IMG/VR virus record: IMGVR_UViG_3300029319_000262
Location: 1 to 32,164 of that record
Direction: 5' to 3' (one strand)
Length of the DNA stretch: 32,164 nucleotides
From: a virus
Under the pieces are notes generated by a model, which was given only the letters and a program-made list of their open reading frames with translations, ran no database searches and had not been told where the DNA came from. Each line of letters opens with the position of its first letter. Positions within the stretch are counted from its first letter, which is position 1. The position numbers were made by a program, and so were the translations under genes. Shown here one piece after another: positions 17,948-30,601 of the stretch.

Positions 17948-17967
17948 CTGTGGAAAACTGTGGAAAA
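17948..17967 (+). repeat. Tandem CTGTGGAAAA repeat, left of attP
   Basis: Two perfect head-to-tail copies of CTGTGGAAAA lie two bases after the last late gene. A related pair is present on the other side of the tRNA fragment (18141-18160), and a 19-bp inverted copy occurs at 30074-30092. Candidate integrase arm-type sites or DnaA-like boxes (one mismatch from the strict TTATCCACA box on the other strand). Confidence 0.6.
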
Positions 17968-17973
17968 TACCAT

Positions 17974-18003
17974 GCATTTTTGTGCTTTTTTGTGCATATT
18001 TGC
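17974..18003 (+). repeat. 10-bp-period TTTTGTGC repeats near attP
   Basis: On the minus strand this reads as three adjacent 10-mers, GCAAATATGC, ACAAAAAAGC and ACAAAAATGC (consensus xCAAAxAxGC). The 14-mer TTTGTGCATATTTG at 17989-18002 recurs, inverted, inside the repressor promoter (20553-20566). One-per-helical-turn repeats next to an att site are typical of excisionase or integrase-accessory binding; that role is inferred. Confidence 0.45.
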
Positions 18004-18069: not shown

Positions 18070-18113
18070 GCGCCCGTAGCTCAGCTGGATAGAGCGTTGG
18101 ATTCCGGTTCCAT
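18070..18113 (+). other. Putative attP core: 5' half of a tRNA-Arg(CCG) gene
   Basis: GCGCCCGTAGCTCAGCTGGA begins a tRNA: 7-base acceptor strand, D arm (GCTC/GAGC), and anticodon stem-loop with TTCCGGT, anticodon CCG at 18104-18106. Homology stops around 18112-18118; no T arm or 3' acceptor strand follows, so it is not a working tRNA gene. A tRNA fragment beside a tyrosine integrase, flanked by paired repeats, is the classic sign of an attachment site. Normally the 3' part of the tRNA is carried; here it is the 5' part through the anticodon loop. Confidence 0.7.
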
Positions 18114-18140
18114 AGGTTCTCCGTCAATAAAACGCATCCC

Positions 18141-18160
18141 CTGTGGAACTATGTGGAAAT
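18141..18160 (+). repeat. CTGTGGAAC/ATGTGGAAA repeat, right of attP
   Basis: CTGTGGAACT and ATGTGGAAAT lie in tandem with a 10-bp period, matching the pair at 17948-17967 in sequence and orientation. The tRNA fragment lies between the two pairs, the arrangement expected of P and P' arm-type integrase sites. Confidence 0.55.
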
Positions 18161-18194: not shown

Positions 18195-18596
18195 TTAGCC
18201 GAATACTAGTTTGCCAAATAGCGCAAATTGCACAATCTCATCTGCGTCACCAGCATCAATAATACTCAAATCTAATGCTGTATCTCTGCGCGCACCATCA
18301 TAGTATACTTGTACTGAATTTCTATAAATCCACTCTTGCAGACCCTTCTGTAAGTTATCCTGACTAAGATATAATACTGTTTTATCCTCACCAGATATGG
18401 TCATCTCTAACATACCACCAATAGCAAGCCACTCATACTCATGTTCTATTTTTGTGCGGCCCTCTGGTAGTTTGCCAGTATCTCCACCTAAACCTTTTAC
18501 CGATGTAACCCAGTAGTTCACACCGCCTTCAAAGGCGGTGCAAAGCAGATCCATCATATCTTGTACAGATAATTCGACTTCTATGTTAACTTTCAT
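18195..18596 (-). CDS. Conserved hypothetical protein between integrase and attP
   Basis: The product has 133 residues. Its ATG overlaps the integrase stop (TAATG), so it is translated from the integrase transcript. The N-terminal motif LSVQDMMDLLCTAFEGGVNYWV recalls a family of small phage proteins with an 'I.D.L..AfEGGs.YW' signature. The middle resembles a small alpha/beta domain (GMLEMTISGEDKTVLYLSQD). The function is unknown. Placement between integrase and attP is unusual, since that gap is commonly empty or holds xis. Confidence 0.65.
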   Translation of the reverse strand: MKVNIEVELSVQDMMDLLCTAFEGGVNYWVTSVKGLGGDTGKLPEGRTKIEHEYEWLAIGGMLEMTISGEDKTVLYLSQDNLQKGLQEWIYRNSVQVYYDGARRDTALDLSIIDAGDADEIVQFALFGKLVFG

Positions 18597-19723
18597 TACG
18601 CGACTCCCATTTTACGATTAAATGCATTATCTACACTATCATTTATCTTATCCATTGTAGAGTGAGATACTGGAGCATAATGCTTACTTACTACTGACTT
18701 GGTAGAATCACCAATAGCGTACCCAGCAAGCTGTATATCGCCGTTTTCTTCTTCAGCCAACTGTGCCTTCAACCTACGTAAATCGTGGCACGTAAACTCA
18801 ATATTAGTGATCTCAGCAATACTTGCAATTATGCGTCGCAGCTTCTTGTAAGCAAATGGTAACGGCTTTTCGTAGCCAGCGTCTTTCCATTTTTTTAGAA
18901 TACCCATAACAATTGGATGCTGCTTGGCCAGTTTGCGCGTCATCTTGCGCTTTGGTAGTAAGCTAATTGTGCGCTTATTAAAATCAACGTGATGCCATTC
19001 TAGCTCTTTTTTACGGTTACGATAATTAAAGCCAAGTAGCTCTTTAGCTCTCGCGCCTGTATACGTGTATAGCGTGATTAAGTCCTTTTGATATTCGCTT
19101 AGGTCAGGATGATTAAATAATGTAAGTATTTCTTGATCGCTCCAAATTTTAAATTCAATGTCCTCACATTCAGATGCATTATATTTGTCATTCTTTGTAA
19201 CGACTTCAAAATTAACCATACCACGCCCTTGCGGTCCGCCATTTGTAGTTGCCCACATAAATATGCAACGCAAGTCGCGTAAATAGCTATTGATTCCATT
19301 CCGGGTACAAGTAAGTGAGCGATGAGCCTTGTAAATTTCCCATCCCATAAGACCATCGCGCTTCATACCGCGTATATTATCTACTGGTGTATCAAGTGGA
19401 AATACTTCCTCAACACTATTCATTACTGCATTATAACGAGAACTTGTTAAAGCATTCAGCTTCAAATCAAGCACGTTAGCTGTGTATGCATTAAACACGT
19501 CTTGTATGGTGACCGTTTCATCGGCCATGTAATACATAGACTTCCAGATTGGGTTATTGGTTTTGTGGTAATGCGCTATGTTTTCCCAGCGGCGCAGCTC
19601 TTCATTAGCGTCATGTTCGTTGCTAAATGTAGCTTTCTGCCACTTAACCTTGACCGGGTCATAGTAGGATAGCACATATGGTTTTTTTGCGTTTTTTTCA
19701 GCTCTTTTATTAATTGATGCCAT
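18596..19723 (-). CDS. int: Tyrosine integrase
   Basis: The product has 375 residues. AGGAG lies 9-10 bases before the ATG on the minus strand. An N-terminal arm-binding-type region (about 1-65) is followed by a SAM-like core-binding domain (about 70-175) and a catalytic domain with Arg225 (YTGARAKELL), Lys258/260 in the beta hairpin (LPKRKMTRK), His313-x-x-Arg316 (CHDLRR) and Tyr349 (KHYAP). The third conserved position, usually His or Trp in a G-H-S motif, is Asp339 here (AIGDSTKSV). It should integrate the phage at a tRNA-Arg gene via the fragment at 18070-18113. Confidence 0.92.
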   Translation of the reverse strand: MASINKRAEKNAKKPYVLSYYDPVKVKWQKATFSNEHDANEELRRWENIAHYHKTNNPIWKSMYYMADETVTIQDVFNAYTANVLDLKLNALTSSRYNAVMNSVEEVFPLDTPVDNIRGMKRDGLMGWEIYKAHRSLTCTRNGINSYLRDLRCIFMWATTNGGPQGRGMVNFEVVTKNDKYNASECEDIEFKIWSDQEILTLFNHPDLSEYQKDLITLYTYTGARAKELLGFNYRNRKKELEWHHVDFNKRTISLLPKRKMTRKLAKQHPIVMGILKKWKDAGYEKPLPFAYKKLRRIIASIAEITNIEFTCHDLRRLKAQLAEEENGDIQLAGYAIGDSTKSVVSKHYAPVSHSTMDKINDSVDNAFNRKMGVA

Positions 19724-19769: not shown

Positions 19770-20519
19770 TTAGCTTTTGCCTTCAATGTCACCATTTACC
19801 CAATAGTAGTACGAACGAACAATTCCTTCAGTTTTATCGTGATAACTTTCGATATTGTACATTCTATAACTGCCATCTTTGGCCTTCCATAAAATATGTT
19901 TCCACATATTGTGTGTATAGTCTGGTATATCATCTGGAATTGAAGCTAATAAAATTTCAAGACTATCGTGATGATACTTCAACGCCCATTCCTCACTTGT
20001 GAATCTTGATAACTCCTGTTCAGTATATCCGGTCATTGATGTATCTCCAGTTACTATATTATTACTAAAAGATTTAGTACTGGGGTCATATTCACATTTA
20101 GTTTTGAAATGAAACGCTGGTTTGTTTTTCTTTTTTTTATAGCTTATCAATATGGTATTTAAGCGATCTATTTCTTCCTTTTGATTTTTGATTTTTTCCT
20201 TTTGATATTGATTAGCTTCTTCAAGAACATTTATGTATTTACGGTTTTGAATTGCATGCATGGTTTTTTCCTCCTTTTGTTGCATGTGATCAATTTGTAT
20301 TCCTTGAGGTGTTTTTACTATCTTTAAATTAAATGCATCTGCTACGGCATATAGCGACTTATCATGTATTTTAGTAGCGCTACCATTTAACCACCTATAT
20401 ATCTGTTGCCTACCAATATTAGTTTGTAGACTTATTTCGGTAATGTTAGTTCCGGGTGACAAGAGTTGCTTTTGAATCATTGCAACAACTGCACTGTGTT
20501 TAGACGTGTATAGTTTCAT
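19770..20519 (-). CDS. Lysogeny repressor candidate: HTH + coiled coil + PAS-like domain
   Basis: The product has 249 residues. Residues about 10-70 form an XRE/Cro-CI helix-turn-helix (NITEISLQTNIGRQQIYRWL, then LYAVADAFNLKI). Residues about 95-132 are a coiled coil (EANQYQKEKIKNQKEEIDRL). Residues about 137-246 look like a PAS fold: SMTGYTEQELSRFTSEEWAL, YHHDSLE, then WKAKDGSYRMYNIESYHDKT and a final VNGDIEG, as in PAS_3 'GYT.eEL...DGsyr...DIT'. There is no LexA-type peptidase motif, so induction may depend on a ligand or redox signal rather than RecA. It is divergent from the Cro-like gene, with AAGGA before the start and a promoter at 20544-20572. Confidence 0.72.
   Translation of the reverse strand: MKLYTSKHSAVVAMIQKQLLSPGTNITEISLQTNIGRQQIYRWLNGSATKIHDKSLYAVADAFNLKIVKTPQGIQIDHMQQKEEKTMHAIQNRKYINVLEEANQYQKEKIKNQKEEIDRLNTILISYKKKKNKPAFHFKTKCEYDPSTKSFSNNIVTGDTSMTGYTEQELSRFTSEEWALKYHHDSLEILLASIPDDIPDYTHNMWKHILWKAKDGSYRMYNIESYHDKTEGIVRSYYYWVNGDIEGKS
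20259..20276 (-). promoter_or_regulatory. Internal Shine-Dalgarno and ATG inside the repressor gene
   Basis: On the minus strand AAGGAGG (20270-20276) is followed eight bases later by an in-frame ATG (20259-20261), Met87 of the repressor. This is a better ribosome site than the one at the gene's own start. It would give a 163-residue product with coiled coil and PAS domain but no DNA-binding domain. It could be a second isoform, or could reflect an ancient fusion of two genes. Confidence 0.55.
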
Positions 20520-20543
20520 GTTTATCTTTCCTTAATGAGCATA

Positions 20544-20572
20544 ATATTACAACAAATATGCACAAATAACAA
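20544..20572 (-). promoter_or_regulatory. Repressor promoter
   Basis: On the minus strand a -35 TTGTTA (20567-20572) and a -10 TAATAT (20544-20549) are separated by exactly 17 bases. The spacer contains TTTGTGCATATTTG, the 14-mer repeated near attP, a plausible operator for autoregulation. Transcription would start about 18 bases before the repressor start codon. Confidence 0.6.
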
Positions 20573-20580
20573 AAAAATAC

Positions 20581-20610
20581 TTGTAAAAGCTTCACATAGT
20601 AAAATATATT
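20581..20610 (+). promoter_or_regulatory. Early rightward promoter (Cro side)
   Basis: TTGTAA (20581-20586) and TATATT (20605-20610) are spaced by 18 bases. The predicted start of transcription is about 20617, at or one to two bases before the ATG at 20619, which has no Shine-Dalgarno site; the Cro-like mRNA may therefore be leaderless. The promoter is back to back with the repressor promoter. Confidence 0.45.
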
Positions 20611-20618
20611 AGCTACAC

Positions 20619-20852
20619 ATGAACAGTAAAAAAGCTACACACAACCAGTGGACAATTCCAAAATTGATGGAGAAATATCAGTACAGTTTACGTGATTTAT
20701 CGCCAATGTGCGGATTGTCTCCCAGTATGTTATGTAGGTTGTTTAATGGAAATAGAAAGTTTTTAAGCAGACATAAATCTGTGATTGCAAAAATATTTAA
20801 TGTTGACGAGAAAAGTATTATATGGCCACAAAAAAACCAGAACATAAAGTAG
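20619..20852 (+). CDS. Cro-like HTH regulator
   Basis: The product has 77 residues. An HTH of the Cro/CI type is visible (YSLRDLSPMCGLSPSMLCRL, then FNGNRKFLSRHKSVIAKIFN). It is divergent from the repressor and is the first rightward early gene, the position of Cro. There is no ribosome-binding site before the ATG. AGCTACAC occurs at 20611-20618 and again at 20633-20640, a possible operator pair straddling the start. It overlaps the next gene by 31 bases. Confidence 0.7.
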   Translation: MNSKKATHNQWTIPKLMEKYQYSLRDLSPMCGLSPSMLCRLFNGNRKFLSRHKSVIAKIFNVDEKSIIWPQKNQNIK

Positions 20853-21046
20853 GTTGGATGACAATCAGACAAGCTGCTGAATACTTAGGTGTATCCGAGC
20901 GTGGTTTGAAATATGCAGTTGGTCTTAAAAAGCAAAACATCGCAAATAAAGAGTTACAATTAAAAAGCTACGGTAATCGTACACTTATAAATGTAAAAAG
21001 TTTAGATGAAATTAAAGAGATTTATATTAATGCTCCGCAGCACTAA
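20822..21046 (+). CDS. HTH protein, excisionase/MerR-like
   Basis: The product has 74 residues. The sequence WMTIRQAAEYLGVSERGLKY followed by a basic segment (KKQNIANKELQLKSYGNRT) and a short beta element (LINVKSLDEI) is that of winged-HTH excisionase-type DNA-binding proteins ('T..eAA.yLgvS...l'). As second gene of the early operon in a phage with a tyrosine integrase, a Xis or second regulator role is likely. The DNA target might be the repeats beside attP; this is inferred. Confidence 0.65.
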   Translation: MATKKPEHKVGWMTIRQAAEYLGVSERGLKYAVGLKKQNIANKELQLKSYGNRTLINVKSLDEIKEIYINAPQH

Positions 21047-26960: not shown

Positions 26961-27104
26961 ATGGGTAAAAAAAGTAAAAAAAGTAAAAAAAGTAAAAAAC
27001 TTTTTTACTTGGCAACGCAGTTTCGCAGTAGTCGTCACGTCAATCTTTTTTACTTTTTTTACTTTTTTTACTTTCTAGGGGTGTACGGTGTTTTTTTACA
27101 CTAG
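26961..27104 (+). CDS. Possible 47-residue (KKS)n...(FYF)n peptide
   Basis: From ATG 26961 the left repeat arm reads MGKKSKKSKKSKKLFYL and the right arm reads LFYFFYFFYFLGVYG, ending at TAG 27102. The frame stays open through both repeat arms because the repeat unit is nine bases. No clear Shine-Dalgarno site is visible. It could be a translated basic-plus-aromatic membrane peptide or only a by-product of the repeats. Confidence 0.25.
   Translation: MGKKSKKSKKSKKLFYLATQFRSSRHVNLFYFFYFFYFLGVYGVFLH
26965..27075 (+). repeat. Inverted arrays of the 9-mer GTAAAAAAA / TTTTTTTAC
   Basis: The left array (26965-27000) has three GTAAAAAAA units plus GTAAAAAAC. The right array (about 27044-27075) has three CTTTTTTTA units plus CTTTC. 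The arms are complementary over about 30 bases and flank a mixed 37-base core with CGCAGTTTCGCAGTAG. It could be a cruciform, a transcription barrier after the replication operon, or an iteron/A-tract origin element. It directly follows the primase-helicase gene. Confidence 0.75.
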
Positions 27105-29996: not shown

Positions 29997-30262
29997 CAGC
30001 TAATTAATACTTTTGCTGGCAGTGATCGAGTCCAAAATAAGTAGGACGGCCAGCGGTCCGGATCCGTGCCAAATTTCCACAGTTTTCCACAGTTCTCAAA
30101 CGTGCCGACGGCGGACCCGTGGACAAAGTATCCACCGTCTAATATTGATACACATTTTTACCGGGTATACCAAGGCCAGCTAGACCCGCGGTTCCTATTG
30201 TGTCTCTAAATTTTTTTTACCCTTTTTTGTCAACACTTCGCATGTGTAGCTTCTGTAGCTTT
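29997..30262. other. Non-coding control region before the terminase genes
   Basis: No gene is seen between the cassette promoter and the HTH/terminase operon. It contains the CTGTGGAA-type repeats (30074-30092), an imperfect hairpin GTGGA-CAAAGTA-TCCAC flanked by GACGG/CCGTC (about 30105-30140), a T-rich stretch (30211-30228) and a tandem TGTAGCTTC/TGTAGCTTT (30245-30262). It could be an origin, a packaging (pac/cos) site, or both. A clear plus-strand promoter was not found. Confidence 0.5.
30074..30092 (-). repeat. Inverted copy of the attP CTGTGGAA double repeat
   Basis: The minus strand reads CTGTGGAAAACTGTGGAAA, identical over 19 bases to 17948-17966. On the plus strand TTTTCCACA fits the relaxed DnaA-box consensus TTWTNCACA. 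Placement between divergent operons fits a replication origin, while identity with the attP-flanking repeats fits a phage protein such as the integrase. Confidence 0.6.
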
Positions 30263-30601
30263 ATGAATAAAGAATGGCATAACCTATCGGATGCGGATGC
30301 CACTTTATTAGAAGATGCTATAATTCAAAGTGAACAATTCGCAGAGCGGCTTGCAGTGTTTCGCAGCGGTCTAATCTCACCAGAACAACGCTGGTTACAA
30401 CTCAGCGCCCACAAGATCTATGATAATCTTAGTGCAAGAGAGCTGGAAGTTTTTAAAATGCGTACACTCAAGCACACGTTCCCGGTCATTGCAGAAGCTT
30501 TAGGCGTTAGTGTGTCCAGTGCAAAGACCTACTGGCGCCGATGTCTGGCCAAATGCACAACAGCGTTTATGTCAACTAATGAGAGTATAAGTGATGGGTA
30601 A
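30263..30601 (+). CDS. HTH regulator of sigma-region-4 / LuxR type
   Basis: The start is taken at ATG 30263 (112 residues); the frame is open to 30200, but that part (LNFFYPFLSTLRMCSF) looks non-coding. The C-terminal half reads LSARELEVFKMRTLKHTFPV, then IAEALGVSVSSAKTYWRRCL, an HTH like sigma-70 region 4 or LuxR. As the first gene of the terminase operon it may activate late genes or act in DNA packaging. No ribosome-binding site is visible before the ATG. Confidence 0.6.
   Translation: MNKEWHNLSDADATLLEDAIIQSEQFAERLAVFRSGLISPEQRWLQLSAHKIYDNLSARELEVFKMRTLKHTFPVIAEALGVSVSSAKTYWRRCLAKCTTAFMSTNESISDG

Follow-up and report, generated by a model that had tools for sequence, protein, structure and literature searches.

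A candidate immunity repressor of a temperate phage with a predicted PAS fold in the position of the RecA-responsive peptidase

Repressors of the lambda CI type carry an N-terminal phage HTH and a C-terminal Peptidase_S24 module that is separable from it, and their genes occupy a slot between the divergent early genes and the integrase. The protein described here resembles them in each of these respects, with the difference that its C-terminal module is a predicted PAS domain and not an S24 peptidase, so that this protein has no route of RecA-stimulated self-cleavage. Bacterial PAS-HTH repressors, in which PAS domains modulate DNA binding, are exemplified by PpsR/CrtJ. The likeness to these regulators lies in the presence of PAS on a repressor; they differ in being host proteins that carry several PAS domains and, at the C-terminus, an HTH of the Fis type.

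For the control of phage lysis by a PAS domain, the nearest experimental precedent is VqmA-phage of vibriophage VP882, a DPO-binding phage transcription factor that links PAS both to the binding of DNA and to the decision between lysis and lysogeny (PMC12802170, PMC8284805). The PAS domain of this protein is required for dimerisation as well as for DPO sensing (PMC8284805). VqmA-phage is, however, an accessory factor, which activates the antirepressor gene qtip and acts on a separate CI, whereas the PAS domain considered here is part of the apparent repressor itself. The order of the domains and the class of HTH are different as well, the HTH being N-terminal here, while in VqmA an HTH of the LuxR type follows PAS. 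The TF-smORF modules of linear plasmid-like phages are SOS-independent and respond to cues other than DNA damage, as is proposed below for the present phage, but in those modules a second factor inactivates CI, whereas this repressor would have a built-in input domain (PMC10432266). What triggers prophage induction in settings with little DNA damage is among the questions still open (PMC10432266).

A tblastn search of 50,697 phage records with the window protein and with a related repressor (L006), which reaches fairly close relatives, found none, and a scan of a genome collection with the PAS domain, of the same reach, confirmed none. We found no report of a PAS-bearing phage repressor in open-access papers. 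Judged from sequence comparison and structure prediction, the protein appears to be a CI-type repressor of a new sort, whose input domain is exchangeable and is not a peptidase. A fold of the sensor type would here stand directly in place of the module through which such repressors respond to RecA, and dormant viruses of this kind may wake to cues other than DNA damage.

The locus and its repressor gene

The window, by which we mean the whole stretch of DNA analysed, is the IMG/VR record IMGVR_UViG_3300029319_000262 (32,164 nt), and its relatives, designated by L numbers, were gathered from IMG/VR. The proposed immunity repressor, with the domain order HTH-coil-PAS, is encoded on the minus strand at 19770..20519 by an ORF with an ATG start and 249 codons for amino acids, recognised from its translation and HTH matches. 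The sequence-only reading of this DNA had described the N-terminus as an XRE-type HTH, and this is borne out by matches to HTH_7, HTH_3 and HTH_26 over approximately residues 1-70 (20310..20519, minus strand). In the window protein HTH_7 (E 7e-5) and HTH_3 (E 3e-4) both fall slightly short of the Pfam cut-offs. Among the relatives, HTH_3 is above its cut-off in L005, L010, L014 and L015 and Phage_CI_repr in L006, L007 and L008, the type of HTH varying between groups. Taken together, the matches in the window and the relatives that pass the cut-offs indicate an N-terminal HTH of the repressor type, as is found in CI-type immunity repressors. A coiled coil had also been proposed, and in the AlphaFold2 (AF2) model a single helix does occupy approximately residues 91-131 (20127..20249, minus strand; helix 2-42 of the folded segment).

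A tyrosine integrase gene lies directly downstream of the repressor (18596..19723, minus strand; phrog_1, E 1e-13, and Phage_integrase), and on the plus strand a divergent gene encodes a Cro-like HTH protein of 77 aa (20619..20852) that matches the repressor and regulator families phrog_3, phrog_8 and phrog_2967; both genes are where they had been claimed to be. The Cro-like gene is followed by one for a 74-aa HTH_17 (excisionase/AlpA-like) protein (20822..21046, plus strand; E 6e-6). The order in the window is an ORF at 18195-18596, integrase, repressor, the divergent Cro-like gene, the HTH_17 gene and, after it, an early operon that includes SSB-like, nuclease and primase-helicase genes. The IMG/VR relatives keep one layout, in which a small divergent HTH gene is followed by the operator region, the repressor and the integrase. 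In the PAS records with enough flanking sequence, a frame with integrase features directly follows the repressor on the same strand, with the exception of L015, in which the integrase match starts about 3 kb further on. Outside the clade of the window the junction between repressor and integrase is usually a short overlap, of 4 bases in many relatives. The directly divergent partner is a small HTH_17-like gene in L002, L003, L004, L007, L008, L014, L015 and L016, a label read from the sequences of these eight records. The gene is therefore divergent from cro or an analogue of it and, as the exchanges described below illustrate, is inherited together with its operator, as is characteristic of a CI-type repressor.

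The control region between the repressor and the Cro-like gene (20520..20618) is 97-100% identical to that of L010 in 60-bp blocks. Three operator-like repeats, WAGCTWCACA, are found in and beside it on the plus strand, at 20587-20596, 20610-20619 and 20632-20641. With at most one mismatch this sequence has 12 matches in the window as compared with 5.5 expected, and none of 100 shuffles scored as high. A tandem of two related copies (30243-30261, minus strand) immediately precedes a gene at 30263-30601 that matches the sigma factor family phrog_1190; L010 has the same pair unchanged, and L005 retains it in part.

The C-terminal domain

The C-terminal segment had been assigned to the PAS class on the basis of four motifs, GYTEQEL, HHDSLE, KDGSYRMYNIE and GDIEG, all of which are present in the translation. 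The domain extends over residues 133-246 (19782..20123, minus strand) and includes a conserved entry motif, KPA[FY]HFK, and an end motif, YWVNGD. No Pfam PAS model was matched by the window protein on its own. PAS_3 was the most frequent Pfam match among the relatives, in 8 of 13 segments (best E 3e-5), and was matched by 5 of 7 in a second set (best E 2.1e-5). In the full-length proteins the gathering cut-off of PAS_3 (PF08447; 25.6 bits) was not reached, the top score being 23.8 bits in L009. The domain is accordingly classed as a PAS fold by its predicted structure and not as a member of PAS_3.

The AF2 model, computed from an alignment of 13 sequences, has a mean pLDDT of 85.5 overall and a pTM of 0.64, with block means mostly above 90 inside the domain. 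(An alignment-free fold of the protein, with a pLDDT of 50, was set aside.) The elements of the model succeed one another as helix, strand, strand, three helices and three long strands, which is the PAS order of strands A and B, helices and strands G, H and I. When the model was compared with the PDB using Foldseek, the 50 best matches were nearly all PAS or LOV proteins, among them HIF2a/ARNT PAS-B, PAS domains of Leptospira and Haloarcula and short LOV proteins, with probabilities of 0.98-1.00, E values from 1.6e-3 up, target-normalised TM scores of at most 0.68 and sequence identities of 9-18%. Sequence searches of the PDB found no relative. The PAS fold is thus established at the level of prediction, and the proposal of such a fold has withstood the modelling that was to check it. 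A search for repressors with this architecture in other marine prophages had also been suggested, and PAS relatives of the window repressor are present in further viral records of IMG/VR.

Over nine pairs of sequences the dN/dS of the PAS domain is 0.10-0.26, a sign of purifying selection, and the domain is therefore being maintained. Across 11 sequences 30 positions are invariant, and the invariant residues are grouped in two strands, the entry strand (KPAxHFK) and the exit strand (YWVNGD). The same alignment of 11 sequences contains no conserved Cys in the domain and no cofactor motif. Since a conserved Cys would be needed for the LOV-type adduct, LOV-type flavin photochemistry, and with it blue-light sensing, was judged unlikely. 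An invariant histidine, His183, is located in an HPD-like motif. As such a motif is common in PAS_3 domains, His183 gives no sign of haem.

Peptidase_S24 (PF00717) was detected in none of 16 records, namely the window and 15 related ones, most of the latter being fragments; 10 of 14 control genomes were positive in the same scan. The window phage thus does not display the C-terminal peptidase that marks a RecA-cleavable CI of the S24/LexA type. A sister phage, L048, does: in its repressor slot a single protein matches both Phage_CI_repr (E 1e-10) and Peptidase_S24 (E 7e-13). This HTH-S24 CI is flanked by a divergent HTH_17-like gene and by an integrase that is 51% identical to the integrase of L006. 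It follows that PAS stands at the place of the RecA-responsive domain. The claim that PAS replaces a LexA-like peptidase therefore agrees with the predicted fold and with the absence of S24 from the record.

Exchanges at the repressor slot

Comparison of closely related phages sheds light on the role of the protein. When L002 and L004 are aligned over 3.2 kb, DNA identity is 0.92-1.0 in nearly all flanking 50-bp blocks and 0.80-0.98 within PAS, and falls as low as 0.36-0.72 only across L002 4501-4826, an interval that runs from the HTH-coding half of the divergent HTH_17 gene through the intergenic region and across the HTH of the repressor. The same pattern is seen between L007 and L016, which are 100% identical over most of the early side. 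By analogy with lambdoid phages, a divergence focused on the operator and on the HTHs of the repressor and its partner is the pattern of heteroimmunity. Because it occurs in two phage pairs, the HTH-PAS protein is very probably an immunity repressor, and the HTH_17 protein would be its opponent at shared operators, for which these two swaps are the best evidence. The role of phage repressor, which had been proposed for the gene, is thus favoured by both swaps and by L048, whose corresponding slot holds an HTH-S24 CI.

Exchanges of the complementary kind replace the C-terminal part. Between the window and L010, identity is 0.87-1.0 over the HTH, the operator and cro, drops to 0.27-0.60 over the coil and the C-terminal domain, which are unrelated, and returns to 0.98 at the start of the integrase; the two repressors are 97% identical in amino acid sequence over residues 1-65. 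In L012, L041 and L044 one and the same HTH (100% identity over the compared residues) is joined to three different C-terminal domains. A C-terminal replacement is repeated, less sharply, between L009 and L034.

Scans with two integrase families yielded further members of the slot. PAS is found in the window, L002-L009 and L012-L017. A different domain, B, was aligned in L010, L023, L026, L028, L034, L035, L037, L041, L042, L045 and L046, with a possible variant in L033 and L038, and a third, C, grouped by eye, is present in L032 and L044. The idea that domain B is a second PAS was rejected for now, the profile comparison giving a probability of 1% and neither Pfam nor the PDB lending support. 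In L039 (1447-1797) and L040 (2666-3004) the slot encodes a protein of 112-116 aa that consists of HTH and coil and ends at the start of the integrase; as far as its sequence tells, this is a natural repressor without an input domain. No repressor gene at all occupies the slot in L025 (2477-2836) and L031 (2900-3010). These empty and domain-less slots imply that the input domain is not indispensable in these phages. Directly after the integrase of L025 and L026 there is another XRE gene, which is perhaps a replacement repressor.

The PAS domain also travels with different DNA-binding parts. The window PAS shares 79% identity with its counterparts in L002 and L003, and no relationship was found between the window HTH and the HTHs of these two, nor between the window integrase and that of L002; an exchange of PAS is deduced from this disparity. 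With L005, a member of its own clade, the window shares 62% identity in PAS and 68% in the integrase. A tree test of the PAS domains of the window and L005 as one clade gave a p-AU of 0.10 and is not part of the basis for this deduction. We think it reasonably probable that, in a group of uncultured temperate phages, the input of the immunity repressor is an exchangeable cassette. PAS, or one among at least two unnamed domains (B and C), would be mounted on the same HTH and operator, with S24 or no input domain in the slot of related phages, so that close relatives sharing an immunity would respond to different inducing cues. Natural chimeras exist both ways, one DNA-binding part with different inputs and one input with different DNA-binding parts, and the question is therefore testable by domain swapping.

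Induction, rival readings and control sites

We infer from these comparisons that the protein represses and that its C-terminal domain senses a signal. HTH dimers would bind the candidate operators between the repressor and the divergent Cro-like gene and hold the lytic operon off, with the coiled coil aiding dimerisation. The PAS domain, standing where ordinary CI proteins have the S24 autopeptidase that responds to RecA, would read a signal, either a small molecule or a protein partner, and alter the dimer through the coil so that the operators are released; induction would in this way bypass RecA-stimulated self-cleavage. The C-terminal input domain would be exchanged between phages by recombination around the coil, and the HTH, operator and divergent partner would be exchanged separately, as an immunity unit. 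As a whole, the account of a temperate-phage immunity repressor with PAS in place of S24, non-RecA induction and an exchangeable input is in our judgment likely to be correct. Given the place of PAS, SOS-independent induction is the best reading. The sequence-only reading had proposed that induction responds to redox, light, oxygen or a metabolite rather than to DNA damage; the part of this proposal that stands is that induction would answer to something other than RecA-driven autocleavage, which follows well, and no particular cue is supported.

The main rival, which we regard as possible though doubtful, accepts the protein as a repressor and limits the role of PAS to its dimerisation or to the docking of an antirepressor, with neither a small molecule nor a cofactor being sensed. 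An SOS-induced antirepressor could then link the system to DNA damage after all. The PAS domain could indeed work in either of these ways: VqmA deprived of its PAS domains loses both dimerisation and DNA binding (PMC8284805), the domain lacks a cofactor motif and a conserved Cys, and the invariant KPAxHFK and YWVNGD residues at the entry and exit strands could form a protein surface. The proteins of L039 and L040, wholly without the domain, also suit this rival. However, the coil upstream of PAS could dimerise the repressor alone, and the substitution of PAS by several unrelated domains, and by S24, is better suited to an input role than to a mere dimer clamp.

That the gene mainly regulates the adjacent integrase, in the establishment of lysogeny or in excision, with the true repressor encoded elsewhere, is improbable. 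The position of the integrase on the same strand, with the 4-base overlap in many relatives, would fit such a function, as would the additional XRE gene after the integrase of L025 and L026 and a 14-base sequence, TTTGTGCATATTTG, that is repeated exactly in the repressor/cro region and beside attP. These observations must be set against the two phage pairs in which HTH, operator and divergent partner were swapped as one unit, and against the canonical HTH-S24 CI in the identical slot of L048. It would be more surprising still if the C-terminal part were a worn-out domain without function. PAS_3 scores below the cut-off might be expected of such a relic, but the selection data (dN/dS of 0.10-0.26 in nine pairs) contradict it, and the 30 invariant positions across 11 sequences and the confident AF2 fold are likewise against it.

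The preferred reading, of an immunity repressor with an input domain, is accompanied by several candidate sites of integration and control. The probable attP core, read by eye from the sequence, is the first ~50 nt of a tRNA-Arg(CCG) gene (18070..18119, plus strand), and paired TGTGGAAA-like arm-type sites flank it at 17948-17966 and 18141-18159. ARAGORN reported no whole tRNA, and a search for the host with the tRNA-Arg half-gene found no exact match. In L010 and L005 the corresponding place holds a piece of another tRNA, with a CAT anticodon. The paired repeats (TGTGGAAA in the window, GGTTGCAAA in L005) resemble integrase arm sites and vary with the N-terminus of the integrase. The 14-mer TTTGTGCATATTTG occurs exactly twice in the window, at 17989-18002 and at 20553-20566, and is largely retained in L010 and L005; it is possibly a site for a Cox/Xis-type protein, the product of the HTH_17 gene, acting at both places.

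The capsid has weak similarity to those of cyanophages and Pelagibacter phages (22-32% identity), which was not accepted as evidence of the host. An inverted third copy of the arm-like repeat, TTTCCACAGTTTTCCACAG, is located at 30074-30092, 12 kb from attP and upstream of the sigma-factor-like gene. At 26971-27074, between the primase-helicase gene and position 27088, there is a perfect 29-bp inverted repeat of AAAGTAAAAAA units, origin-like or terminator-like, with 46 bp between its arms.
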